From contig NZ_CP093300.1 of NCBI RefSeq assembly GCF_022812285.1, positions 4,402,001 through 4,466,000 of the forward strand: a stretch of 64,000 nt of DNA, written 5' to 3'. The notes under the pieces are model-generated. The model had not been told where the DNA came from. It worked only from the letters and a program-made list of their open reading frames with translations, and ran no database searches. Of the stretch, positions 3,345 through 52,453 are shown one piece after another; positions within the stretch are counted from its first letter, which is position 1, and each line of letters starts with the position of its first letter. The DNA is from Alkalihalobacillus sp. LMS39 (lineage in GTDB: Bacteria; Bacillota; Bacilli; Bacillales; Bacillaceae_F). Both the position numbers and the translations under genes were made by a program.

Positions 3345-4796
3345 TGGATCTCTGTCAAGAAAGTAGACACCTAAATACCGGATTGTTATAGCAGTCTGTT
3401 TCTTCACTTTTTAAAAGCTTAGATGATTCCGTGGTTGCGTCAAGCTAAAACCGCTTGACCCTTCCACTCCACCATCTGGGTGGTTGTTAAGTGAAGAAAA
3501 ACATACTTCTGCCTGTATTCTTTACACTGTGTGATTTTTGTAATATGCTTCTGCGTATTCGACCGGTGTTACGTACCTAATTGAACTATGAATTCTTTTT
3601 CGATTATAGAAAAACTCAATGTATCTATAGATGGCTGTTTGTGCTTGTGCTCTCGTTTTGAACCGTTTTCCTTGAATTAATTCTTTCTTCAATAAGCTGA
3701 AAAATGACTCTGCACATGCGTTGTCATAACAGTTCCCTGTGCGACTCATACTGACATCCATCTTGTAGTCTTGTAGTCGCTCCTGATAAGTATGAGAAGC
3801 ATACTGCGTTCCACGGTCTGAGTGATGAAGTAATCCTTCTTTCGGCTTCTTTGCTTCATAAGCATTGTCTAACGCGGTTAGAACAAGCTTTGTTTCCATA
3901 TGTCTATCCAGGCACCAACCGACAATTTCACGAGAATATAAATCAAGTACTGTTGCCAAATATAACTTCCCTTCTCGACATGGAATATAGGTAATATCTG
4001 TGACCCACACTTTATTTGGATCGGACACTGTAAACTGTTGGTTTAACTTATTTGGCGCAATTGGAAAAAGATGATTTGAGTCTGTAGTACTCACCTTATA
4101 TTTTTTCGATACACAGGAACGAAGTTCAAGTTCTCTCATATAGTTACTGACGGTTCGTTCTGAAATCCTATATCCATCATCTTTTTGCAATTTCTTTGTT
4201 ATTTTTGTACTCCCATATATTTTGTGATGGTCATAATAATAGAAGAGAATTTTTTCTTGAATTGCTTTTTTTCGCTCTTCTTGCTTACTTGGCTTGTGAT
4301 TTCTCCATTTCAGATAACCGCTCCGAGAAACTTCGAGTACTCTACACATCTTCTTCACTGAAAACTCGGAACGATGGTTCTCAATGAATCTAAACCTCAT
4401 GGTTTTGGTCTGCTGAAGATGTGCACCGCCTTTTTTACAATGGCCAATTCTTCTTCTTTTTCTGCTAACTTACGGTTACTGGCTTTTAATTCACGTTCCT
4501 GCTCCCGTAATTGTTGTTCTAGCTTCTGAATTCGTGCTTCAGCTGTAACAGGCTCATTCTCAAATTCACGATAAAGACTAATCCACTCATGTAATGTACT
4601 TAAAGGAACATTTAAATCCTCTGCAATTTCTGTGACGGTTTTCTTATTTTCTTGAACATATTTTACTGCTTCACGCTTAAATTTCTCATTGTACCTTTGC
4701 CGTTGTTCACCCATGGGAACCCCTCCTAATTAGTATTATCATACCCATATTTTTGATTTCCGGTAAAGGGGTGTCCACTTTTTATTCTAGCATCAA
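3345..4796 (-). mobile_element. IS3-family insertion sequence (1452 bp)
   Basis: The ends are imperfect inverted repeats beginning TG: TGGATCTCTGTCAAGAAAGT on the left, and TGATGCTAGAATAAAAAGTG on the right read inward. Both continue into a GACACC block and an ACCGGA block. A 3-bp ATA duplication (3342-3344 and 4797-4799) flanks it, typical of the family. It encodes overlapping orfA and orfB on the minus strand with a frameshift motif. The target was the fourth unit of the palindromic intergenic repeat. The element looks complete and potentially active. Confidence 0.85.
3522..4714 (-). CDS. IS3-family transposase OrfAB, made by -1 frameshift
   Basis: OrfA (4714-4397, 105 residues) has an HTH_8-type DNA-binding region (ENKKTVTEIAEDLNVPLSTL) followed by a coiled coil. 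OrfB (visible ATG at 4400, ending at 3522, 292 residues) is the integrase-fold transposase: an HTH_21 region near the start, then DDE residues in WVTDITYIP, HSDRGTQYAS and ESFFSLLKKE. The slippery heptamer A AAA AAG lies at 4436-4430 near the end of orfA. The -1 frame is open from there straight into orfB, passing its ATG, so the fused transposase is expected from slippage. No internal stop is seen. Confidence 0.9.
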
Positions 4797-33377: not shown

Positions 33378-33424
33378 ATAGTATTATATACCCATACATA
33401 ATGTTTTCATATAGGGAGAATGAC

Positions 33425-34765
33425 ATGGATAAACAAGTGGGTATCGGCAGAAAAATTCGAAGATTAAGAAAACAAAAAAGACTTACCTTAGGTGAATTAG
33501 CTGAAGGAATTTGTTCCATCGGTAAAATGAGTAATATTGAAAATGAACTATCCACTGTAAGTGATGAGGATTTAAATAAAATTTGTGAGAAACTAAGCTT
33601 ACCTTTTGGATATTTTCATGATCCGAATATTAGTGAAAAAGTCGCAGAACTTGATTATTTACAATGTAGATTATTAAATTTGTTACAGCTAAATCAAAAT
33701 AATGATTGTAAAGAAGAGTTACAAACTTTCTTACTAAAAATCGAGGAGTATGGAGTGAAAAGTAAGCTTATTGAGTATGATTATCTATGTGGGCTATTTC
33801 ATATAAAGCAGAAAAAATGGGGACAAGCAAAAGAAAAATTCATCACAATAACTCAAAAATACGAATTAAATGAGATGACTGTACAAACAAAACTTAAATC
33901 ATGTAATGCTCTTGCTTTTATTTACTTTAAAGAAAAGGATATGGCTCAGTGCGTAAAAATTTTAGAAAAAGGAATATCCATATCGGAGAGCTTCAAAAAC
34001 TCCGTTACAAGTGAACGTGAAATACTCTCTTATAACTTGGCTATCGTTTATTTATACATTGGGATTAATCATCGCTCACTACAATCTTTACATAAAATTA
34101 AATCAAGCTACATTTCAGACCAAGAAAAAACATATTTAAAATTGCTTGCTCGTTTTATGGGAGCCGATGAAAATAACTCCATCCAACGTGAATTACTTCA
34201 ATTACAAACTGTCACCTCAAACAATAGTCCCCAAGCTTTACTAAAAACATGGGCTCTGATGATATACAGTGTAATGAAAGTAACTCCCACGCCTCAATTT
34301 GAAGAATTGATTACAGACAGCTTCAAAAGGGATATAGCATTTTTGAGTGAAATGCATGACCATGCAAAAGAAGTATTAGCCTTATTTCATTTTGCATTAT
34401 ATATCTCCATTGATTCGAAACAAGATGCACCGTTACAAGAGCTCTTGTTACAGCAATCTATGGATATGCTAAGGTATGTAAAAGATGATAACATCATTCA
34501 AGCTCGTAACTTATATTTAAAAAGTTTAGTTGAATTACGTCAACATAATAATAAAACGAAGGCACTATCTTTATTGTATGATGCATTACAACTCGTTCAA
34601 CATACCGATGAAGTCTTAGTTGCTGAAATTATATATGAAATCACAAAATTAAATGGAACTAACAGCCTAGAAGCAACTGCCCTTGCTAAGTACCATCAAC
34701 ACCTCAAACCACAATTGAAGTTTTTGCACTTTTATGACTTACTTCTGCCACCGTTGAAGTATTAG
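33425..34765 (+). CDS. XRE helix-turn-helix regulator with TPR-like C-terminus (RRNPP type)
   Basis: This 446-residue cytoplasmic protein starts MDKQVGIGRKIRRLRKQKR. Residues about 8-65 form an XRE HTH (LTLGELAEGICSIGKMSNIE). The remaining 380 residues are helical with TPR-like units (YDYLCGLFHIKQKKWGQAKE, ALAFIYFKEKDMAQCVKILE). This is the layout of PlcR/NprR-type regulators, which bind exported signalling peptides. No peptide gene follows: the stop is followed by a palindrome and a terminator. So a peptide ligand is only inferred. AGGGAG precedes the ATG. It lies next to a Spo0E-like gene, suggesting control of sporulation timing. Confidence 0.8.
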   Translation: MDKQVGIGRKIRRLRKQKRLTLGELAEGICSIGKMSNIENELSTVSDEDLNKICEKLSLPFGYFHDPNISEKVAELDYLQCRLLNLLQLNQNNDCKEELQTFLLKIEEYGVKSKLIEYDYLCGLFHIKQKKWGQAKEKFITITQKYELNEMTVQTKLKSCNALAFIYFKEKDMAQCVKILEKGISISESFKNSVTSEREILSYNLAIVYLYIGINHRSLQSLHKIKSSYISDQEKTYLKLLARFMGADENNSIQRELLQLQTVTSNNSPQALLKTWALMIYSVMKVTPTPQFEELITDSFKRDIAFLSEMHDHAKEVLALFHFALYISIDSKQDAPLQELLLQQSMDMLRYVKDDNIIQARNLYLKSLVELRQHNNKTKALSLLYDALQLVQHTDEVLVAEIIYEITKLNGTNSLEATALAKYHQHLKPQLKFLHFYDLLLPPLKY

Positions 34766-42019: not shown

Positions 42020-42304
42020 GCAGCCCTCGTCCTCTCTATTTTTACATTCATCGAAAACTTAGCTTAACCTTTCAACCGGTTTACATTGAACGCACCATAG
42101 TTCCCGTCAGAAACTTTACCCCTAATTTTAACAGTTTGAGCGCTCTGTTACAAGAAGCGGAATTCATAGTCCATAATAATTGAAAATCAAACAAACTTTC
42201 TCACAATTCAGGTATTTTTTAGGAGAATATATCCTCCTTTTTTCGATAGTTTATGATAAAATAAAGCCAATTCATTCATTATCCTACAAAAGGAGTTGAG
42301 TTTT

Positions 42305-43456
42305 GTGTCAAATATACGTAGTTTATTGTCACAAGAGCTTCAAACCGATCCATCCTTACTATTAAAAATTTCGGAAATTTCAGGTTTTAAAGAAGAAGAA
42401 ATCAATTCCTTCCTAACGAATGAAACTGTCTTTTTAGACTTTGGAAAACTATTAGACGTCATAGATTCGTTCTTCCCAGAACAAGCAAACGACCTCATTG
42501 AACATTACATAAAATCATTAAATATAAATCACCCCACAGCCCAACAAGTTTTGGAATATGTTTTTATTAACCGATTAGATTATAGTTTCCCATTTCTGTA
42601 TCGAATGATGGGTGCTAGTAATGAGGAAAATCAAAACTTTGCCTCTATTTACAAATTCCATTATGAAAATTACGCAAAACCATTTAAATATGATTTTCGT
42701 GAAACAAAAAGCTCTCCGACGTTGCATGCATTTAAAACAATTATGGAGGCCTATACGTTATACAAACAAGTTGATGTTCCTACACTTATTCGAAAAAAAG
42801 AATATGTAGAATATACAATTAACAATTTTGTAAAAGATGAATTCATTCGAAATTATTATCTTCTCCACCATTACCGCGTGTTAATGGGCATTATGCTTGA
42901 CCAAAACGAAATTGAAGAATGCCGTAGAATGGCCAATGAAATTCTCCAGTTACGAAAAAGAGTCAGTTTGAATTTCGCAAATAATGCTTATCACTGCCTT
43001 GGAATTTCATATTTATTCGAGGATTATGACAAAGGCATTTATTATTTAAAGAAAACAAGAGATTTATATCGAAAGATGCCACAATTCCCAGATAGTGATA
43101 TTCATAGTTCGATTAACCTTCATCAAATGTTATGGAACCGTGAACCAGAAGAATTACGGCCAAATAGTAACGTAATTGGAGATAAGCACGATATTGTCTT
43201 TTATTTTGTTCACAAACATGATTTCGAATCAGCAAAAGAGATTTTATTTAACATAGATGAATCAAAAATATCGCAACGGGATAGCGCTTTTCACTTTTAT
43301 CTTAAAGGTATACTAGAAGATGATTCTGACCATCTCTACAAATCAATTATGTTATTTAAACAAATCGGTAATAAATTTTATATTCAATTACCGATTAATG
43401 AATTAAAGAAAAAAGGGATGAACCCGATTTTACTAGACACTCTTTTAATTAATTAG
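42305..43456 (+). CDS. AimR-like peptide receptor/regulator, array copy 1
   Basis: This 383-residue, all-helical cytoplasmic protein has an N-terminal HTH-like region (LLLKISEISGFKEEEINSFL). TPR-like repeats follow, with ECRRMANEILQL, SSINLHQMLWNREPEELRP, and the C-terminal pattern KSIMLFKQIGNKFYIQLPIN. Length, helix order and this C-terminus correspond to phage AimR arbitrium receptors as I recall them. AimR binds DNA and is released by a short exported peptide. The GTG at 42305 is nine bases after AAGGAG; the in-frame TTG at 42296 overlaps that site. First of five intact tandem copies. Confidence 0.78.
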   Translation: MSNIRSLLSQELQTDPSLLLKISEISGFKEEEINSFLTNETVFLDFGKLLDVIDSFFPEQANDLIEHYIKSLNINHPTAQQVLEYVFINRLDYSFPFLYRMMGASNEENQNFASIYKFHYENYAKPFKYDFRETKSSPTLHAFKTIMEAYTLYKQVDVPTLIRKKEYVEYTINNFVKDEFIRNYYLLHHYRVLMGIMLDQNEIEECRRMANEILQLRKRVSLNFANNAYHCLGISYLFEDYDKGIYYLKKTRDLYRKMPQFPDSDIHSSINLHQMLWNREPEELRPNSNVIGDKHDIVFYFVHKHDFESAKEILFNIDESKISQRDSAFHFYLKGILEDDSDHLYKSIMLFKQIGNKFYIQLPINELKKKGMNPILLDTLLIN

Positions 43457-43492
43457 TATTGTCTTATTTCACATAATAAGGAGTTGAGTAAT

Positions 43493-44647
43493 GTGCCAAA
43501 TATACGTGATTTGTTGTCCAAACAGCTTCAAGCAAATCCTTCTTTGCATTTGAAAATATCGGAAATATCCGGACTCACGAAAGAAGAACTAGATAACTTT
43601 ACGATGGATAAAACTATATTTTTAGACTTTGGAAAAATACTTGCCATTGTTAATTATGTTTGTCCTGAAGTTTCGTCTGAAGTTATTAAACAATATATCG
43701 AAACCTTAGACGTGAATCATCCCACTGCTCAACAAGTACTGGAGTATGTGTTCATTAATCGGTTCGATTATAGTTATTCATTTTTAAAGCGCATGATAAG
43801 AGCTTTAAATGAAGAGAACAAGTATTTTGCAACTGTGTACGAACAACACTATAAAGATTTAGGGCAACTGTTTCAATATGACATAAAGGAGGTTGCTAAC
43901 TCACCAACACTTCACGCATTTAAGACGATTATGGAATTATATTCTTTGTTTCGACATGACCAAATCCCAACAATTATTAGAAAAAAAGATTATGTAGAAT
44001 ATACGATTAATCATTTTGTCCAAGATGAATTCATCCGAAACTACTATTTATTACATCACTATCGAATTCTAATGGCCATTCTACTTGATCAAAATGAAAT
44101 AAATGAATGTAGAAGAATGGCAAATGAAATATTACATTTAAAAGACCGAGTCGGCCCAAACTTTTCAATAAATGCAAATCATGTATTAGGCATTTCATTC
44201 TTATTTGAGGACTATGATAAAGGTCTAGAGTACTTATATGAAACAAAAGAATTATATAGAAAGCGACCATCTAATGGTCACGATGGTGATATCCACAGTT
44301 CGATTAACCTACATCAAATAATGTGGAATCGTGAACCAGAAGACTTACGTCCGTCTAGTAAAAAACCATCAGATATACATGATATCGCACATTACTATAT
44401 ATCAAAAAACGAATTTGTTTTAGCTAATGAGATCCTGTCTAACATAAAAGAATCGGAATTATCGCAACGCGATAGTGCCTTTCACTTTTATTATAAAGGT
44501 ATACTAGAAGATGATTCTGACCATCTCTACAAATCGATAATGTTATTTAAACAAATCGGAAATAAGTTTTATATTCAATTACCGATTAATGAATTAAAGA
44601 AAAAAGGGATGAACCCGATTTTACTAGACACTCTTTTAATTAATTAG
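43493..44647 (+). CDS. AimR-like peptide receptor/regulator, array copy 2
   Basis: This 384-residue paralogue of copy 1 has the same blocks: LDVNHPTAQQVLEYVFINRF, YVEYTINHFVQDEFIRNYYL, ECRRMANEILHL and HQIMWNREPEDLRPSS. Its last 49 residues are identical in amino acids to copy 1. The start is GTG, 36 bases after the copy 1 stop, behind AAGGAG. The intergenic spacer is too short for a peptide gene. The near-identical 3' end and spacer shared with copy 1 indicate recent duplication or gene conversion. A peptide-receptor function is inferred from family. Confidence 0.78.
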   Translation: MPNIRDLLSKQLQANPSLHLKISEISGLTKEELDNFTMDKTIFLDFGKILAIVNYVCPEVSSEVIKQYIETLDVNHPTAQQVLEYVFINRFDYSYSFLKRMIRALNEENKYFATVYEQHYKDLGQLFQYDIKEVANSPTLHAFKTIMELYSLFRHDQIPTIIRKKDYVEYTINHFVQDEFIRNYYLLHHYRILMAILLDQNEINECRRMANEILHLKDRVGPNFSINANHVLGISFLFEDYDKGLEYLYETKELYRKRPSNGHDGDIHSSINLHQIMWNREPEDLRPSSKKPSDIHDIAHYYISKNEFVLANEILSNIKESELSQRDSAFHFYYKGILEDDSDHLYKSIMLFKQIGNKFYIQLPINELKKKGMNPILLDTLLIN

Positions 44648-44683
44648 TATTGTCTTATTTCACATAATAAGGAGTTGAGTAAT

Positions 44684-45838
44684 GTGGCAAATATTCGTAA
44701 ACTGTTGTCCGAGCAGCTTCAAGCAAATTCTTTTTTGTATTTAAAAATATCGGAAGTATCCGGTCTCAGCAAAGAAAGACTTGACGCCTTTCTTTTCGAT
44801 AAAACTATATTTTTAGACTTCGGGAAATTACTAGATATTGTGAACGCTGTTTGTCCTGAAAATTCGGCTGATATCATCAAGCACTATATTGAAACATTAG
44901 ATGTGAACCACCCGACTGCTCAACAAGCCTTAGAATACTTGTTTATTAATCGATTCGATTATCGTTATACATTTTTAAATCGTATGGTTCAAGCTAAGAA
45001 TGAAGAAAACAAATATTTTGCGACTGTATACAAGCAACACTATGATAATCCAAGTCAACTATTTCAATATGATTTACAGGAGATTGCTAACTCTCCTACA
45101 CTTCATGCCTTTAAATCCATTATGGAATTATATGCCTTGTATAGAAACGAAGAACTCACACCGATAATTCGAAAAAAAGAATATGTTGAATACACAATAA
45201 AAAACTTTGTAGAAGATGAATTTATACGAAAATATTATTTACTGCATTTTAATCGATTATTTATGGTGATTTCTTTATATAAATATGAAATTAGTGACTG
45301 TCGAGGAATGGCAAATGAAATATTACATTTAAATAATCAAGTTGACGGACTTATATTAGTAAGTACATATCATACTTTAGGGATGTCCTATTTGTTTGAG
45401 GATTATGATAAAGGCCTACTATATTTATATAAAGCAAAAGAAATGTATAGAAGAAGACAAGAAAACGGTCGAGACGGAGATATTCATAGTTCCATTAACC
45501 TCCACCAAATTATATGGAATAAAGAACCAGAAGATTTACGGTTTAACAGTAAGAAAAATGCGGATATTCATGATATTGTTCACTACTATATTATGAAAAA
45601 TGATTATGTAAAAGCTCGCCAAGTATTGTTAACCGTAAATGAAGCTGAGATCAGTCCAAGAGATAATGCTTTCCATTTTTTTTATAAAGGAATTCTTGAA
45701 GATAACACCGATCATTTCTACAAATCAATCATGCTTTTTAAACAAGTTGGCAACAAACTTCACCTTCAATTACCATTAAATGAACTCAGAAAAAGGGGAT
45801 TGAATCCACTATTACTTGATACGCTTTTAATAAATTGA
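44684..45838 (+). CDS. AimR-like peptide receptor/regulator, array copy 3
   Basis: This 384-residue paralogue has HTH-like LYLKISEVSGLSKERLDAFL and TPR-like body blocks YVEYTIKNFVEDEFIRKYYL and HQIIWNKEPEDLRFNS. In the usual ECRRMA block it reads DCRGMANEILHL, losing the second Arg that every other copy keeps, so ligand or DNA contacts could differ. The C-terminal block KSIMLFKQVGNKLHLQLPLN is closer to copy 4 than to copies 1-2. GTG start at 44684 behind AAGGAG. The upstream spacer is identical to that between copies 1 and 2. Confidence 0.77.
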   Translation: MANIRKLLSEQLQANSFLYLKISEVSGLSKERLDAFLFDKTIFLDFGKLLDIVNAVCPENSADIIKHYIETLDVNHPTAQQALEYLFINRFDYRYTFLNRMVQAKNEENKYFATVYKQHYDNPSQLFQYDLQEIANSPTLHAFKSIMELYALYRNEELTPIIRKKEYVEYTIKNFVEDEFIRKYYLLHFNRLFMVISLYKYEISDCRGMANEILHLNNQVDGLILVSTYHTLGMSYLFEDYDKGLLYLYKAKEMYRRRQENGRDGDIHSSINLHQIIWNKEPEDLRFNSKKNADIHDIVHYYIMKNDYVKARQVLLTVNEAEISPRDNAFHFFYKGILEDNTDHFYKSIMLFKQVGNKLHLQLPLNELRKRGLNPLLLDTLLIN

Positions 45839-45874
45839 ACGTTTTTCATTATTTACTGTAGGGAGTTGAATAAT

Positions 45875-47026
45875 TTGTCTAATTTACGTAACCTATTGTC
45901 CGAACAGCTTCAAGAAAACCCTTCTTTATATTTAAAAATATCGGAAATATCCAATCACACCAAAGAAGAACTAAACGACTTTATTTACGATAAAACTATA
46001 TTTTTAGACTTTGGGAAATTACTAGACATTATTAATGTTATTTCCCCTGAAAATTCAGCTGAAATTATTAAGCAATATATCGAAACAATAGATGTAAACC
46101 ACCCCACTGCTCAACAAGTACTGGAGTATGTTTTTATTAATCGGTTCGATTATTGTTATTCATTTTTAAATCGTATGCTTGAAGCTATGAATGAAGAAAA
46201 TAGGTATTTTGCGACTGTTTACAAGCTCCACTATAAAAATCTAAGCCAATGGTTTCAATATGATTTAAACGAAATTGCTAGTTCACCAACACTTCATGCT
46301 TTTAAAACGATTATTGAGTTGTATTCATTATATACACATGACCATATCCCAACAGCCCTTAGAAAAAAAGATTATGTTGAATATACGATTAACAACTTTG
46401 TTCAAGATGAATTTATTCGAAAGTATTATCTAGTTCATTATTATCGAGTACTCATGATTATATTATTAAACCAAGATGAAATTAGCGAATGTCGGAGAAT
46501 GGCGAATGAAATATTGCGTTTAAAAGACCGAGTCGGTTACAACTTCTTAAAAAATGCATATCATGTACTAGGCATGTCCTACTTATTTGAGGACTATGAT
46601 AAAGGGATTCACTATTTATATAAAACAAGAGAATTGTATAAAATTCATCCATTTTCTTATGATGGAGATCTCCATAGCTCGATTAACCTTCATCAGATAT
46701 TATGGGGAGAAGAACCTGAAGATTTACGATTTAATAGTGAAAAAAATTTAGATATCCACGATATCGTACACTACTATATTATGAAAAATGATTATGCAAA
46801 AGCCCGACAAACACTGTTAAAAGTTAATGAAGATGAAATTAAGGAAAGAGATAATGCTTTCCACTTTTTATATAAAGGAATTCTTGAAGATAACACAGAC
46901 CATTTCTATAAATCTATCATGCTTTTTAAACAAATTGGTGATAAACTGCACTGTCAATTGCCAATTAACGAACTTAAGAAAAGAGGATTGAACCCTCTAT
47001 TAATTGATACACTTTTAATAAATTAA
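45875..47026 (+). CDS. AimR-like peptide receptor/regulator, array copy 4
   Basis: This 383-residue paralogue has the N-terminal region LYLKISEISNHTKEELNDFI, the body blocks IDVNHPTAQQVLEYVFINRF and ECRRMANEILRL, and HQILWGEEPEDLRFNS. It ends LLIDTLLIN like copies 1-3. The start is a TTG at 45875 placed as in the other copies, eight or nine bases after AGGGAG. Most similar to copy 3 in its C-terminal half. It is co-directional with the other copies and separated from copy 5 by 47 bases, so a polycistronic transcript is likely. Confidence 0.77.
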   Translation: MSNLRNLLSEQLQENPSLYLKISEISNHTKEELNDFIYDKTIFLDFGKLLDIINVISPENSAEIIKQYIETIDVNHPTAQQVLEYVFINRFDYCYSFLNRMLEAMNEENRYFATVYKLHYKNLSQWFQYDLNEIASSPTLHAFKTIIELYSLYTHDHIPTALRKKDYVEYTINNFVQDEFIRKYYLVHYYRVLMIILLNQDEISECRRMANEILRLKDRVGYNFLKNAYHVLGMSYLFEDYDKGIHYLYKTRELYKIHPFSYDGDLHSSINLHQILWGEEPEDLRFNSEKNLDIHDIVHYYIMKNDYAKARQTLLKVNEDEIKERDNAFHFLYKGILEDNTDHFYKSIMLFKQIGDKLHCQLPINELKKRGLNPLLIDTLLIN

Positions 47027-47073
47027 AACAACTGTTCATTTTACTATGCGCACCATTATATGGAGGGATTTTA

Positions 47074-48231
47074 ATGTCAAAACTTCGAATGCTATTGTTC
47101 CAACTTGTCCAAGACAATGAATCCATTTATGAAAGAATAATGAAAACTACAAGTCTTCCTAAAAGTGTAATTAACACCTTTATAGTAGACCATTCGGTTT
47201 ATCTAGATTTCGGAAAGATTCTAATGATTATTGATGACCTATTTCACGAAAATGCTGACTCATTACTTGAAGATTACATTATAAATTTAGATGTAAATCA
47301 CCAAACTGCCCAGCAAGTATTAGAATTTTGTTTTATGAATTTCACACCCTGTCGGTATGACTTTTTATATAACATGTGTGAAGCTACTAACAATGACAAT
47401 AAGGCGTTTGCTCAAATTTATCAAAATCACTATGATAACCTTGATAAAAAAATTAATCCCTTTAACATAACAAATGGCAATTATAATACACCTACACTCC
47501 ATGCTTTTAAAATACTGATGGAAGCCTATTCACAATATAACATGGATATGATCCCTACACTGATTACAAAAAAAGACTTCTTGGAATATACAATTAACGA
47601 GTTTGTCTCGGATCCGTTTATACGAGATTATTATTTAGTACGATTTTATCGCATCCTTATGTTAATTATGCTTGATCAAAACGAGGTAAAAGAGTGTCGA
47701 AGAATGGCCAATCAAATCTTAAATCTATCATTAACACTCAGTGCAGCTTTTAAAATCCAAGCCATACATGCCATAGGAATGTCGTATTTATTCGAAAACT
47801 ATGAATTAGGATTAGACTATTTATATAAGGCAAAAAAGCTTTATAAAAGTTCATCCATTAGCACAGATGGAGATATTCACAGTTCCATTAATCTTCATCA
47901 GATATATTGGGGAAAAGAGCCAGAAGACTTAAAATTCTATAGTCAAAAAACCTCAGATGTTCTTGATGTTGCTTTCTATCGTATGATGAAAAAAGATGTT
48001 TACGAAGCTAAAAAAACAATGAAACAGGTGAATGAAAATACACTATCTCAAAGGGATTCTGCATTTTATTTCTATATAAAAGGGATATTAGACGATGATA
48101 CGAATTATCTTTATAAGTCGATTATGCAATTCAAACAAATAGGAGATAAATTTTACGTCCAATTACCTATAAAAGTTCTCGAAAAAAAAGGATTTAATCC
48201 TCTATTAATCGAAACTATTTTAATAAGCTAA
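47074..48231 (+). CDS. AimR-like peptide receptor/regulator, array copy 5 (divergent)
   Basis: This 385-residue protein is the most diverged intact copy. The start MSKLRMLLFQLVQDNESIYE follows GGAGG with an ATG. It keeps LDVNHQTAQQVLEFCFMNFT, YTINEFVSDPFIRDYYLVRF, ECRRMANQILNL and HQIYWGKEPEDLKFYS. The C-terminus KSIMQFKQIGDKFYVQLPIK ends in LLIETILIS rather than DTLLIN. It groups with the interrupted copy 6, sharing MANQ and the HQIxWGKEPEDLKF pattern. A 222-base gap with its own promoter follows before copy 6. Confidence 0.77.
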   Translation: MSKLRMLLFQLVQDNESIYERIMKTTSLPKSVINTFIVDHSVYLDFGKILMIIDDLFHENADSLLEDYIINLDVNHQTAQQVLEFCFMNFTPCRYDFLYNMCEATNNDNKAFAQIYQNHYDNLDKKINPFNITNGNYNTPTLHAFKILMEAYSQYNMDMIPTLITKKDFLEYTINEFVSDPFIRDYYLVRFYRILMLIMLDQNEVKECRRMANQILNLSLTLSAAFKIQAIHAIGMSYLFENYELGLDYLYKAKKLYKSSSISTDGDIHSSINLHQIYWGKEPEDLKFYSQKTSDVLDVAFYRMMKKDVYEAKKTMKQVNENTLSQRDSAFYFYIKGILDDDTNYLYKSIMQFKQIGDKFYVQLPIKVLEKKGFNPLLIETILIS

Positions 48232-48337
48232 AATCATTACCTTCCAACCACATTTTTTGAGTCATACCGACAAAATTGATGTAAACACCATTGTAGAATT
48301 TTGTATAAAAATGCAGAAAAAAATCGAAAAATAATCT

Positions 48338-48366
48338 TTCACGTAAGACAAATCTTTCGTTATAAT
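48338..48366 (+). promoter_or_regulatory. Predicted SigA promoter of copy 6 and the peptide gene
   Basis: TTCACG (48338-48343), 17 bases, TATAAT (48361-48366), 87 bases before the copy 6 ATG. The gap between copies 5 and 6 (48232-48453) holds no other gene. The separate promoter suggests copy 6 and the peptide precursor once formed their own transcription unit. Confidence 0.6.
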
Positions 48367-49013
48367 AAACTTAACGAGATAAACAAAAAAGATGTCTTTT
48401 TCATTGGAAGATTGTCGTTTTTCTACTTTACAGTATAAGGAGTTGACAATTGAATGCTAGACCTAAAGACAATGATAAAACAAGAAATAAATAAAGACCC
48501 TTCTTTATTTACAGAACTTGTAAATGTAGCAGAGGTTTCTAGCAGTGAATTAGACACTTTTATTAACAAACACAATTCATCCTTACTCTTCGGAGAACTT
48601 GTAAATATTATTGAGTATCTTTTCCCTGAAAAAGATATTGAAATTCTTGAAGAGTATAGCAAAAGGATCGATGTTAATAAATACGATGCTCGGCAAGCAC
48701 TTGAGTATTTATTTATTAATATGTTACCTTCCAGAAATGAGTATCTTAATAAATTGAAAACATCTTCAAATGAAGAAAATAGAGAGTTTGCTAAAATATA
48801 TGAATTACACTATGAAAATAAAAATTCACTATTAAAGTATATTCATTTAAATGATTTACATTTTAAATCACAGACACTACATTCTTTCAAATGTATTAGT
48901 GAAATGTATCAACACTATTTTGAAGACAAGATTGAAATGTTGTTAAGTATGAAAGAGTACGTTGAGTTCACTATAAATGAATACGTTACCGATAAATTTT
49001 TAAAAAAATACTA

Positions 49014-49020
49014 TTTTCTT
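49014..49020. repeat. 7-bp target-site duplication of the IS21 element
   Basis: TTTTCTT at 49014-49020 is repeated at 51489-51495, immediately outside the two element ends. Confidence 0.85.
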
Positions 49021-49098
49021 TGTATTTGGCAAGAGAAAAATGTATAAAACGGCAAACCTTTTTGTAAGGCCACTTACCAACATAACTTTGTTAAACTA

Positions 49099-49827
49099 TT
49101 ACAACTCTCTTAATGCTAGTGACTCCTTCATTCGGTTACTATCACCCCCAAATAATACTAAGTGGGAGTGATGGATTAAGCGGTCTACTACCGCTTCGGT
49201 TAGGATAGGATCGCCAAATACATGATTCCACTGTCCAAATTGAAGGTTTGTGGTGATAATAATACTTCTTTTCTCATAACACAGTGAGATTACTTGGAAA
49301 AGCAGCTCAGCTCCCTGCTTATGTAAAGGTATATATCCGAGTTCATCGAGTATCAATAAGTCTAGCTTCTCAATCCTCTTAAACAATTTAGTTAGTGTCC
49401 CTTTTTCATTGGCATCCAGTAGTTCATTTGCAAGTGAGGCAATGGTATAGAACTTCACTCGCTTGCCATACTTATGTATGGCATTGATTCCAATGAGTGT
49501 GGATAGATATGTTTTCCCGGCACCAACGCCACCGTAAAAAACCATATTCTCCTTTGTATCAATAAACTCGCCATCTAAAAGGTACTGTTGGCTCAACCCT
49601 TGTCCTAACTGGATATCTTGCCAATTGAAAGGTTTGCCAGATGCGTTTGGCAACGTTGCCGCCTTTAGTAAAAGATTAATCTTCCTTTCCTCACGTTGTT
49701 CTATTTCTTTCTCAAATAGAGTTAATAAATAGTCTTGAGGATCCTTCGGATCTAGTTTGTGAAAATTTTCTCGTATCCAACTGAGCTTTAAACGTTTGGC
49801 ATATTCCTGAATCTTTTCTTGCATCAT
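49099..49827 (-). CDS. istB: IS21-family helper ATPase IstB
   Basis: IstB is an AAA+ ATPase, related to DnaC, that assists target selection by IstA. The 242-residue protein has Walker A YGGVGAGKTYLSTLIG, Walker B LLILDELGYIPLHKQGAELL and sensor ITTNLQFGQWNHVFGD, ending in RLIHHSHLVLFGGDSNR. Its ATG overlaps the istA stop by four bases, the usual translational coupling. It is full length for the family. Confidence 0.94.
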   Translation of the reverse strand: MMQEKIQEYAKRLKLSWIRENFHKLDPKDPQDYLLTLFEKEIEQREERKINLLLKAATLPNASGKPFNWQDIQLGQGLSQQYLLDGEFIDTKENMVFYGGVGAGKTYLSTLIGINAIHKYGKRVKFYTIASLANELLDANEKGTLTKLFKRIEKLDLLILDELGYIPLHKQGAELLFQVISLCYEKRSIIITTNLQFGQWNHVFGDPILTEAVVDRLIHHSHLVLFGGDSNRMKESLALREL

Positions 49828-51338
49828 CCCTGCCTCCTTTTCAAGGTAAAGAAGGCATCATATTGGTTCATTCCGCGTTCCGCTAATGGCATTGCCGGAA
49901 CACTACTTTTCAGCTTAAGAGTTGGTCTATGACCACGGCCATGAACCAGTTGATGAAAGACTTGCTTGATAGTTTCTGAAGATGGGTGACAACTCTCAGA
50001 AGCGATCTCTAAAGCCTCTGTAGCTATTTCTAAACGGTTACTTTTTAATATTGTCGATAATAAAAGTAATGCTTTTTTCTTTTCTTCAACCGTACATTCA
50101 TCCAAATATTTTTGCCATGCTTCTGGAAGCTGACTATAAAATGTCGTGTACTTTAAAGCTGTTGGTCTCTTGGCCATGAGAGATAGATAAGGTTGCCAAA
50201 TCATTGATTTAGTTTCTTCTCCATATAGCCGTTCATGACTTACGATTACTTCATAATTATCCGCAAGGATATCAATGCGGTTGTAGGTAACACCCACTAA
50301 TACTCGTTGATTTGCATAACGCGGGGAAGTGGAATACCTTTTCGAATCTACAAGTACATAACCATACTTATCCGCCTTCAAAGTCTCAATACGCATTCCT
50401 GAGTATTCTTTAGCTGGTAGGTAGAGTAATGCTTCCCTATCTTCCTCAAACAATCTAGCAATCTCATTCTTCTTTTCGTAGTGTGAACGAAATCTATCAT
50501 TCTCTACTTCAAGCCATAATTCTTTGTTTAACTTTTCAATTTGATAAACAGGTCGTTCTGGTAAAAAGAAGTTATTTCGTACATACTTAACCATTGCCTC
50601 TACATGACCTTTTTCATTTCCAGCGCCAGGATTACAAAACTCGTACTGAAAACCGTAATGTAAGGCGAACCTTTCAAAGCCTTCTGTTAGTTCTCGCTTA
50701 CCTTGAGGAAGGATTTTTTTAACTGCTGGAGATAAGTTATCAAAACGTATTCTCTTTGGTACACCTTCTAAGTGGGTAAAGAATCGTTTTAGTCCTTCTA
50801 GGAAACAATCCTGATTTTGAGATTCAAAAACTTGAACTAAGAATGCATTACTGTACGGAAAGGAAAGAACGAGATACGGAAGGTCAATCACCTTACCATT
50901 CCTTTTAAACGGCGCCTCCCCAAAGTCTACTTGAGCATCACCAGGTCTTGCCTCTAACGGAATCGCAGCACCTTCGCTTTCGTCTAATAATTCCTTTTTA
51001 CGTTTAGACACATACGCCCTTACAGTTCGGTCGGAGCCTTTAAAATTTATGTCTACATCGTCTACAAGCATTTGCCATATACGTTTGGCAGTCCTTCGGT
51101 ATTTCTTTTTCTTCTTCATATCTTCTTTCAACCATTGATCGATGATATCCTTAACGGGGTCCATTACTGGTGCCGGTTGTGGCTTTACCCTCTTCGTTTC
51201 CGGTTGAAATTCCTCTAGGTCGGCATACTTCTTAACTGTTCTAACATCCTTATTCGTTCTTCTAGCAACATCCGAATAGGAATAACCTTTCGTGTTTACT
51301 TCTTGTCTGATATAATTAATTTCGGTCACTTCTAACAT
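49824..51338 (-). CDS. istA: IS21-family transposase IstA
   Basis: This 504-residue DDE transposase has an N-terminal HTH (TKGYSYSDVARRTNKDVRTV) and an rve catalytic core. It contains the first Asp in DAQVDFGEAPF, the second near RIRFDNLSPAVKK and the Glu in PGAGNEKGHVEAMVKYVRNN. A C-terminal region follows with GYVLVDSKRYSTSPRYANQR. It is intact. It works with IstB, encoded directly downstream. The start at 51338 overlaps no other gene. Confidence 0.94.
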   Translation of the reverse strand: MLEVTEINYIRQEVNTKGYSYSDVARRTNKDVRTVKKYADLEEFQPETKRVKPQPAPVMDPVKDIIDQWLKEDMKKKKKYRRTAKRIWQMLVDDVDINFKGSDRTVRAYVSKRKKELLDESEGAAIPLEARPGDAQVDFGEAPFKRNGKVIDLPYLVLSFPYSNAFLVQVFESQNQDCFLEGLKRFFTHLEGVPKRIRFDNLSPAVKKILPQGKRELTEGFERFALHYGFQYEFCNPGAGNEKGHVEAMVKYVRNNFFLPERPVYQIEKLNKELWLEVENDRFRSHYEKKNEIARLFEEDREALLYLPAKEYSGMRIETLKADKYGYVLVDSKRYSTSPRYANQRVLVGVTYNRIDILADNYEVIVSHERLYGEETKSMIWQPYLSLMAKRPTALKYTTFYSQLPEAWQKYLDECTVEEKKKALLLLSTILKSNRLEIATEALEIASESCHPSSETIKQVFHQLVHGRGHRPTLKLKSSVPAMPLAERGMNQYDAFFTLKRRQG

Positions 51339-51415
51339 CTCCTAAAACTACCTCCTGCCAGTATTGGGTCCAACAGGAAGTGTATTGAATTTTTGAGATG
51401 TTAGCAAGTGGCTTT

Positions 51416-51450
51416 TTTTGTGTAGGTGCCCTTCGGGCACCTACACAAAA
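51416..51450. repeat. Perfect 16-bp hairpin near the IS21 end
   Basis: The arms TTTTGTGTAGGTGCCC (51416-51431) and GGGCACCTACACAAAA (51435-51450) are exact complements with a three-base loop. It lies between the element end and istA and could block transcription entering from outside. Confidence 0.75.
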
Positions 51451-52105
51451 GGGCTGCCATACCCTACATATTTATAATGCCATAAACATTTTCTTCGTTT
51501 TTATAATGCTCTAGCGCTTATTATGCTTTACCAAAACAATGTAACTGAATGTCGAAGAATGGCTAACCAAGTAATCGATATAAAAGTTAGGAAAAGTTTA
51601 AAACATAAAGCTACAATGCTCCAAACGATAGGTATGTCTTATCTTTTTGAAGATTACGAACAAGGAATATCTCACTTATATAAAGCTAAAAAGTTATACG
51701 ACGAAATTGCTGATGGAAAGAACGGCGAAATTCATAGTTCGATAAATTTACACCAAATTCATTGGGGAAAAGAGCCAGAAGATTTGAAGTTTGATAGTGA
51801 AGAGCCTTATGATAAACATGATATTATTTATTATTTAGTCAAAAATAAAAAAGTTAATGAAGCTAAACAACTAATCGAGAGCATTGATGAAACGAGACTT
51901 TCAGACCGTGATCTTGCCTTCCATTTTTTTAGTAAAGGTTTAGTCGACCGAAATCTTGATTTTATGTACAAATCTATTCTCCAGTTTAAAAAAATCGGTA
52001 ATTTGTTTTATATACGTCTTCCATTGGATGAATTAAGAAAACAAGGAGTAAATGATTTATTACTCAAAACTATTTTAACTTAATTCCTTGAAGGGAGGTG
52101 AAAAA

Positions 52106-52324
52106 ATGAAAAAAGTAAGATTGGCTTTAATTGCATTTGTTGCACTAACTTTTTCTGTGGTAGCCTCACCTGCGCTTGCTAGTGACGTTGAGCCTTTAAA
52201 AGGTGGTAAAATTATTATCGAAGTAAGAGATGATGTACAACCACTAGGGAAAGGTGGTGGAATCATCATTGAAACAACAGGAACTGTTAATCCAATGGGT
52301 GGTGGCCGACCAGATATTCAGTAG
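52106..52324 (+). CDS. Exported repeat-containing peptide precursor, candidate receptor ligand
   Basis: This 72-residue protein starts at ATG 52106 behind GGGAGGTG, 22 bases after the copy 6 stop. MKKVRLALIAFVALTFSVVA is a Sec signal with a likely cut after SPALA. The remaining 47 residues hold three imperfect repeats: DVEPLKGGKIIIEV, DVQPLGKGGGIIIET and TVNPMGGGRPDIQ. Each has the core V-x-P-(L/M)-..-GG. A short secreted precursor just downstream of a receptor gene is the layout of aimR-aimP and rap-phr pairs. That any part is processed and re-imported is inference; it could also be a small secreted protein with another role. Confidence 0.7.
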   Translation: MKKVRLALIAFVALTFSVVASPALASDVEPLKGGKIIIEVRDDVQPLGKGGGIIIETTGTVNPMGGGRPDIQ

Positions 52325-52415
52325 TTGTGATTTTTAAATTTATTTACTTGAATTCGTGAAACCGATTTAAAACCATGTCGCTTTTACTAATTCACCATAG
52401 AAAATACATAATAAA

Positions 52416-52444
52416 AAGAGAGTGTAGCCAAGCTACACTCTCTT
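52416..52444 (-). terminator. Terminator after hpf (also faces the peptide gene)
   Basis: AAGAGAGTGTAG / CTACACTCTCTT with a five-base loop, followed by TTTTTA on the minus strand. It lies between the convergent peptide precursor and hpf genes. Confidence 0.85.
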
Positions 52445-52453
52445 CCCTTGGTA

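Follow-up and report, generated by a model that had tools for sequence, protein, structure and literature searches.

What a tandem row of receptors related to AimR, the receptor of phage arbitrium (AimR-AimP-AimX of SPbeta and phi3T), does in a bacterial chromosome is the question raised by a locus of Alkalihalobacillus sp. LMS39. The locus lies in the stretch of 64,000 nucleotides analysed here (the window), positions 4402001-4466000 of a one-contig genome of 4.85 Mb. Five intact genes of 383, 384, 384, 383 and 385 codons (receptors 1-5) stand co-directionally on the + strand within 42305-48231, separated by spacers of 36, 36, 36 and 47 bp. Another 222 bp lead to a sixth gene (receptor 6) that is interrupted by an insertion and followed by a gene of 72 codons, the likely, if putative, source of the signal peptide of the locus. 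We lean toward the view that this is a host quorum-sensing locus of the RRNPPA type, a many-channel receiver whose receptors read different peptides.

A sequence-only reading of this DNA had described a tandem array of five intact and one interrupted AimR-like genes outside any visible prophage, and coordinates, codon counts and profile matches bear out the array. Receptors 1-5 score 150-166 bits against the NCBIfam model NF038310 (lysogeny_AimR; cut-off 70) and 158-179 bits against Pfam PF22871 (cut-off 26.7), and for all five the match to PHROG 1728 spans about 370 residues. As for receptor 6, its two parts reach 48.7 and 137.2 bits with PF22871, both above the cut-off; with NF038310 the C part is above it (101.6 bits) and the N part below (58 bits). 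Searching the PDB by sequence, receptors 5 and 2 as queries returned 10 distinct chains each, all of them AimR, arbitrium receptor or YopK, with best E values of 2.6e-26 and 9.4e-26, respectively. The AlphaFold2 model of receptor 2, the one receptor modelled (17-sequence alignment; mean predicted local distance difference test, pLDDT, 88.9; predicted template-modelling score, pTM, 0.85), displays the N-terminal helix-turn-helix (HTH) and the superhelix resembling tetratricopeptide repeats (TPR) of the AimR fold. At E <= 0.001 it matches 16 PDB chains, all 16 of which are AimR (TM 0.63-0.80 by query length, over 337-397 alignment columns), and the next match follows at E 4e-3. The C-terminal hydrophobic dimer helix of SPbeta AimR is formed by L380, L383, L384 and L386, as given in PMC6458997; in an alignment read by eye, receptor 2 has L at 380, T at 383, L at 384 and I at 386. 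Profiles and fold both uphold the assignment to AimR.

The array is flanked by prfB and secA on one side and by raiA/HPF on the other. Among 17 flanking window proteins (8 and 9) tested against Pfam no phage-like protein was found; the families present include SecA, release factor, S30AE, UvrA, FtsX, CtpB-like, FliD and flagellin, and one of the 17 is a transposase, presumably of the IS3 type. We compared the locus with A. bogoriensis ATCC BAA-922 (NZ_JHYI01000012.1; Alkalihalobacterium bogoriense at NCBI) and with a third species of the genus. The former carries seven intact receptors and the propeptide gene at the same secA/raiA locus. In the latter the array is absent, the secA-raiA interval measures 229 bp, and no PF22871 match rises above the cut-off, the one weak match elsewhere scoring 20.7 bits. 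Neither array genome has an AimR match outside the array at E <= 0.001. Carriage by a phage, phage-plasmid or prophage, as in arbitrium, is not what the flanks, the orthologous locus and the near-empty interval of the third species show, and the placement outside a prophage is sustained. A quick tree of 130 receptors unites the 12 intact array proteins in a single clade with full support (SH-aLRT 100, an approximate likelihood-ratio test), within which receptor 6 branches first, then receptor 5, then receptors 1-4. The neighbouring clade (24 rows) contains the AimR of SPbeta and phi3T and, alongside them, several receptors whose sites appear chromosomal when judged by eye.

The receptors are under purifying selection: by Nei-Gojobori counting, the ratio of nonsynonymous to synonymous divergence (dN/dS) between receptors 1-5 and their A. 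bogoriensis orthologs is 0.10-0.19 in the five pairs. The two parts of receptor 6, compared separately with the ortholog, give dN of 0.040 and 0.057 and dS of 0.61 and 0.87, implying that receptor 6 was constrained until the insertion. Both parts align without gaps to the intact A. bogoriensis copy, and about 8 bp are present on both sides of the break by our own reading of the alignment, in which they resemble the duplication left by a transposon; the IS21-type insertion looks recent. Synonymous divergence among window paralogs 1-4 ranges from 0.9 to saturation and exceeds that between orthologs (about 0.5), so that most duplications predate the species split. Copy 5 of A. bogoriensis is without a counterpart in the window. 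Since the array is host-located and under selection, it is in all likelihood functional.

To compare the peptide pockets, 27 peptide-contact positions of SPbeta AimR (contacts and dimer interface as given in PMC6458997) were transferred by alignment to the array receptors, with 291 other positions serving as the comparison. Window paralogs 1-4 differ at 34.6% of the contact positions and at 32.6% of the others. Between species, the contacts of four ortholog pairs differ at 2.8%, versus 13.1% elsewhere, a value as low as that found in only a fraction of 0.0008 of 5000 random sets. On this contact map, each pocket is held nearly fixed between species while the copies differ. The phage residues N202 and R228, which grip the peptide backbone and carboxylate (PMC6458997), occur in none of the 12 intact array receptors. 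T236 is kept in 3 of the 12, and among receptors 1-5 and their A. bogoriensis counterparts in copy 3 only; N239 is absent from this latter group. Position 360 is D in five and N in seven of the 12 proteins, and E300 is replaced by D throughout. Because the contacts Y159, L205 and L242 are retained, some peptide is probably bound by the array receptors. Receptors 1-5 have an arginine at phage position 198, and in A. bogoriensis receptor 6 position 228 is a lysine and position 236 a threonine, where the window C part is identical; these residues may do the job of the phage anchors in a different manner.

The dimerisation segment is 81-82% identical between paralogs, the highest of six regions, compared with 64-67% in the pocket core. 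Over the last 150 nt, receptors 1 and 2 are identical at 146 positions, versus 138 and 140 for each against its own ortholog; these 3' ends, which encode the dimer helices, look homogenised as by gene conversion. At the HTH, copies 2-4 show a synonymous divergence of 0.38-0.47, compared with 0.22-0.58 for the orthologs of the same copies, and HTH identity in A. bogoriensis is 77-89% in four pairs of copies 2-5. That the receptors share a common operator is a guess on our part.

The 72-codon propeptide consists of lysines, a hydrophobic stretch and ALA-S, and then SDVEPLKGG, DVQPLGKGG and TVNPMGGGRPDIQ, i.e. three imperfect repeats of the type (D/T)V(E/Q/N)P(L/M)..GG. It ends in GGGRPDIQ (GGGHPDIQ in A. 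bogoriensis), which is not a hexapeptide of the RGA type. Its signal and the first two of its repeats hardly differ between the species, and the gap to receptor 6 is 22 bp in the window and 23 bp in A. bogoriensis. With the Sec signal judged by a simple hydrophobicity rule in place of SignalP, receptor 6 and this gene constitute the arrangement typical of RRNPPA systems, a receptor beside a small propeptide with a Sec signal. The gene has no second copy in the window genome, where the next match has E 0.15 and contains a stop, and by an in-house rule none of receptors 1-5 is accompanied by a propeptide. The end that the sequence-only reading had set for the array, 52324, is the stop of the propeptide gene, which it did not name. 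Both array genomes have eight matches to PF00496, the oligopeptide-binding type, and the genome that lacks the array has three (three genomes); candidate importers are thus present, and one of them might take up the array peptide.

In a relative (L076), DVQPL is repeated directly before the presumed mature peptide. By analogy, this suggests that DV.PL marks the cut site and that the peptides are the residues following it. In our survey of AimR relatives, 121 receptors lie outside nine loci treated as phage, plasmid or viral. For 38 of them there is a candidate propeptide with a signal no more than 120 bases away, and in 12 of the 38 it repeats a stretch of at least 5 residues exactly; propeptides with internal repeats hence also follow other AimR relatives. 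In L061, from 10835, a propeptide with six near-identical TPSTSPRIQS units lies right after an AimR-like gene. A small secreted-looking protein with AELPPIY(Q/K)PN repeats (L119:13258-13776) lies about 5 kb from an AimR-like gene that has no adjacent propeptide by the in-house rule. In two phage-like viral contigs (L078, L079), the small gene 3' of an AimR relative repeats DPGGGPIGG or DPGDGPIGG, which would be an arbitrium type without RGA. The coordinates of the array and of the features around it are collected in Table 1.

Table 1. Features of the array and its surroundings, in positions of the window (ORF, open reading frame).
Feature	Position	Strand	Basis or remark
Near-palindrome AGGAGAATATATCCTCCT, 18 bp	42221-42238		upstream of receptor 1; listed as terminator-like in hairpin scan
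aimR-like receptor 1	42305-43456	+	383 aa, GTG start; ORF and profile matches
aimR-like receptor 2	43493-44647	+	384 aa, GTG start; profiles; fold model made from this receptor
aimR-like receptor 3	44684-45838	+	384 aa, GTG start; ORF and profile matches
aimR-like receptor 4	45875-47026	+	383 aa, TTG start; ORF and profile matches
aimR-like receptor 5	47074-48231	+	385 aa, ATG start; older branch than 1-4 (tree)
Conserved spacer block	48291-48370	+	80/80 identical in A. bogoriensis; remaining spacer 114/144
Inverted repeat CGAAAAAT-N19-ATCTTTCG	48325-48359	+	overlaps promoter-like pair before receptor 6
Promoter-like TTCACG-N17-TATAAT	48338-48366	+	inside the 80-bp conserved block before receptor 6
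aimR-like receptor 6, N part	48454-about 49027	+	broken by insertion; PF22871 match, alignment to A. bogoriensis copy
IS21-type insertion	49028-51487 (outer limits approximate)	-	interrupts receptor 6
istB of IS21-type element	49099-49827	-	Pfam IstB_IS21 1.4e-57
istA of IS21-type element	49824-51338	-	Pfam Mu-transpos_C_2 5.4e-12
aimR-like receptor 6, C part	about 51488-52083	+	PF22871 and NF038310 matches
Putative signal propeptide gene	52106-52324	+	72 codons, 22 bp 3' of receptor 6; signal-like N-terminus and repeats
Terminator-like hairpin	52413-52447	-	between propeptide gene and convergent raiA
Transposase gene (presumably IS3-type)	3525-4400		rve domains; ~38 kb from array

Two places in the locus could hold regulatory sites. 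The near-palindrome upstream of receptor 1 is a perfect palindrome in A. bogoriensis and is possibly an operator or a weak terminator; no further copy at 0-1 mismatches occurs in the three genomes. At 2 mismatches, three sites were found in two genomes (one in the control), and the two that were opened both lay inside coding sequence, so these candidates were set aside. The conserved block before receptor 6 is a candidate for a separate promoter/operator of receptor 6 and the propeptide. Its TTCACG-N17-TATAAT pair is one of seven top-scoring sites (10/12) in the region and the sole one of these on the + strand. Phage AimR binds distant inverted boxes with a 25-bp spacer, as described in PMC6458997, and by likeness to these boxes the inverted repeat before receptor 6, of which the three genomes hold no copy away from the array, may be an operator. 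A near-identical AT-rich CGAAA-N25-TTTCG site found in both array genomes lies inside a 594-codon ORF in the window genome. No gene of the aimX type was found beside the array; the 129 bp between the propeptide gene and raiA hold the terminator-like hairpin (examined at the locus only).

Taken together, these features can be arranged into a working scheme. The founding pair of signal and receptor would be the propeptide and receptor 6, for which a separate candidate promoter exists. After export by Sec, the propeptide would be processed outside the cell into short peptides, which an oligopeptide permease would take up again. Tandem duplication would have given rise to receptors 1-5, which probably share one transcript that starts upstream of receptor 1. 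Their output parts would have been kept compatible, above all the dimer end, shared by copies 1 and 2 via gene conversion; the DNA-reading heads of copies 2-4 are similar, not identical, and the pockets would have diverged and then been held. Several peptides, from the own propeptide and perhaps from those of relatives or neighbours, would act through AimR dimers to gate operators that coincide or overlap. In this scheme we infer the identity and binding of the peptides, the DNA targets, the co-transcription, the common operators and the heterodimers. Because the insertion broke receptor 6, the strain may listen without its founding receptor. One might go further and suppose a combinatorial receiver, in which mixed dimers of receptors with a shared dimer end, different fixed pockets and, in copies 2-4, DNA-binding heads that resemble one another let one operator set integrate several peptides, including unlike products of the propeptide; we regard this as possible, if rather speculative.

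A number of observations weigh against a many-channel host receiver. The array is carried by two genomes only; in a scan of a genome collection, which recovers only sequences keeping short conserved words, A. bogoriensis was the only locus found. The contact map comes from a phage receptor about 25% identical, so that single residues may be misaligned, and the selection analysis relies on a simple counting method. Pocket divergence among paralogs 1-4 is not accelerated, 0.41 of 5000 random sets being as high; since their pockets differ no more than the rest, distinct ligands are put forward by inference only. Of the regions compared, the HTH is the one least alike in the two species (mean 81%, versus 82-97% for the others), with regional dN/dS of 0.16-0.41; window copies 2-4 share only 66-74% of its protein sequence, and receptors 1, 5 and 6 have other recognition helices. 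The low conservation between species and the 66-74% weaken the idea of one output. In A. bogoriensis the last 150 nt of copies 1 and 2 agree at 141/150, barely closer than orthologs. The last 18 codons of the propeptide change fast, carrying 9 of 13 nonsynonymous changes; its match to the AimP model is weak (E 0.14, first 20 residues only), and its repeats, counted from A. bogoriensis, fail an exact-repeat rule of at least 5 identical residues. Promoter-like sites occur in the region at chance number (54 versus 50.7 expected). The pattern CGAAANAT-N19-ATNTTTCG occurs only at the array in the two array genomes and is absent from the third species, and loose CGAAA-N25-TTTCG sites are at chance level, with 9, 3 and 11 in the window genome, the third species and A. 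bogoriensis versus 11, 12 and 16 for the reversed control. The operator-repeat searches of the three genomes thus found no regulon or targets.

Some of the same observations would fit an array in which all copies answer to the peptide or peptides of one propeptide and amplification only raises the amount of receptor. The propeptide gene is single in the genome, the copies adjoin (36 bp apart within 1-4) and bear marks of gene conversion, and the pockets do not diverge faster than the rest. We nevertheless find this dosage effect doubtful, given that copies 1-4 differ at about a third of the contacts, each pocket being nearly unchanged between species, and that A. bogoriensis receptor 6 has K228 versus R198 in receptors 1-5. 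The lack of own propeptides beside receptors 1-5, by the in-house rule, would also suit host receptors that sense or soak up the peptides of arbitrium phages. The sequence-only reading had proposed host communication or immunity, or decoys for such peptides. Host communication survives as the best reading; decoys do not, since N202, R228 and N239 are absent from receptors 1-5 and T236 is present in copy 3 only, neither array genome has another AimR match, and a conserved propeptide belongs to the locus itself. An eavesdropper or decoy array is accordingly unlikely.

Even less can be said for explanations in which the array has no role of its own. The functionally known relatives are phage genes, and the almost empty interval of the third species indicates that the block was gained or lost there, as might be expected of a relic of a prophage or mobile element that retained only its receptor genes. 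The duplications, however, are old (paralog dS 0.9 to saturated, ortholog about 0.5) and purifying selection acts on them; the 17 flanking proteins include no phage gene, the mobile genes found being the IS21 element in copy 6 and the presumed IS3-type transposase 38 kb off; and other AimR relatives sit at host-like sites by eye. A relic is thus very improbable. Neutral tandem duplication without function, heading to decay, could explain the insertion in copy 6, the copy numbers of six and seven and the absence or loss in the third species, yet it has hardly any room when dN/dS is 0.10-0.19 for each of the five intact copies and about as low for both parts of copy 6.

The array shares with phage arbitrium the receptor family, the fold, the HTH and TPR architecture and the receptor-propeptide order, with a gap of 22 bp at receptor 6 versus 13 bp in SPbeta and 30 bp in phi3T. 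It differs in being a chromosomal core locus with six or seven receptors, and the identity to it is about 25-30%. Phage arbitrium has an RGA hexapeptide and aimX next door, whereas the array has no such hexapeptide, has lost most RGA anchors in receptors 1-5, has no gene at the place of aimX and has a triple-repeat propeptide. AimR proteins outside prophages, mostly without a propeptide, have been proposed to be eavesdroppers, and propeptides holding several peptide copies are known, according to PMC9765709. Receptors 1-5 resemble those chromosomal eavesdroppers in lying outside prophages without their own propeptide; the array differs from them, as there described, in being tandem, in its one linked repeat-bearing propeptide and in its occupation of the same site in two species. 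RRNPPA subfamily 21, chromosomal in Alkalihalobacilli and branching within AimR (PMC12700828), is similar by its description in chromosomal location, related hosts and position within AimR; RRNPP systems have also been surveyed in PMC10075063. AloR-AloP of Paenibacillus, of which there are many pairs, likewise combines many RRNPP paralogs per host, some without a peptide, with cross-regulation, but it belongs to another receptor subfamily and consists of peptide-receptor pairs, and the words tandem and array are absent from the main text of PMC7425212. Among the literature matches listed, no title or abstract opening names a tandem AimR array, which may be listed in supplementary material. Chromosomal AimR was already known; the array is a new form of RRNPPA signalling.

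Of 397 genomes of the order, 85 contain a PF22871 match, 79 of them above the cut-off. Receptor counts per genome are at-least values, with the best five candidates scored among the matches listed, and longer arrays may exist elsewhere. In 99 stretches around such matches (19 and 80, a subset of all), groups of at least three receptors comprise the array (five intact; seven) and, in another family, rows of genes lacking the HTH in four species (4, 4, 3 and 3 genes). These rows (L067-L070; L067, L069 and L070 span about 7-12 kb each, and L068 is similar) are like the array in being AimR-type, three to four in a row, and, by eye, host-like in their flanks in L067, L069 and L070, which we take to be argS and speB. 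They differ in their size of 339-366 aa, in lacking the HTH and in lying on the other side of the tree, with an unrelated gene between two of them in L069; no propeptide lies beside them by the in-house rule. On that second side of the tree (82 rows), 71 of the 82 AimR-like proteins have at most 366 aa and seemingly no HTH. Instead of serving as transcription factors, such short proteins may work through contacts with other proteins.

Further relatives and one neighbour deserve mention. Sites judged host-like by eye from translations are L059, L060, L067, L069, L070, L073, L075, L076, L115, L119 and L134. L075 and L134 come from two genera of one family; in both, an AimR-like gene stands between genes that are presumably murG-like and 2-oxoglutarate dehydrogenase-like, and the propeptides that follow it differ. 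The AimR-like gene of plasmid CP045534.1 (L111) appears as two open frames and is possibly broken. A viral scan, which likewise recovers only sequences keeping short conserved words, gave two relatives with the array alignment and 15 loci with SPbeta AimR; A. bogoriensis receptor 6 as the query matched 25 phage and 5 plasmid records at about 21-30% identity. Finally, 7.5 kb before the array, a 454-codon gene (33401-34765, +) has an N-terminal HTH_31 match of 24.4 bits, just below the cut-off of 27, and no other Pfam family; its size and layout could suit another peptide-sensing regulator.

Arbitrium receptors have been studied as phage genes, and host copies have been read as possible spying on phages. 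A conserved and selected host array with its own propeptide and held pockets is a concrete case in which this receptor type looks like an organ of bacterial signalling. With the other relatives that look chromosomal, it allows the direction of exchange between phage and host to be tested, and it supplies six or seven natural receptors in which to follow how specificity for peptides shifts while the output parts are kept.

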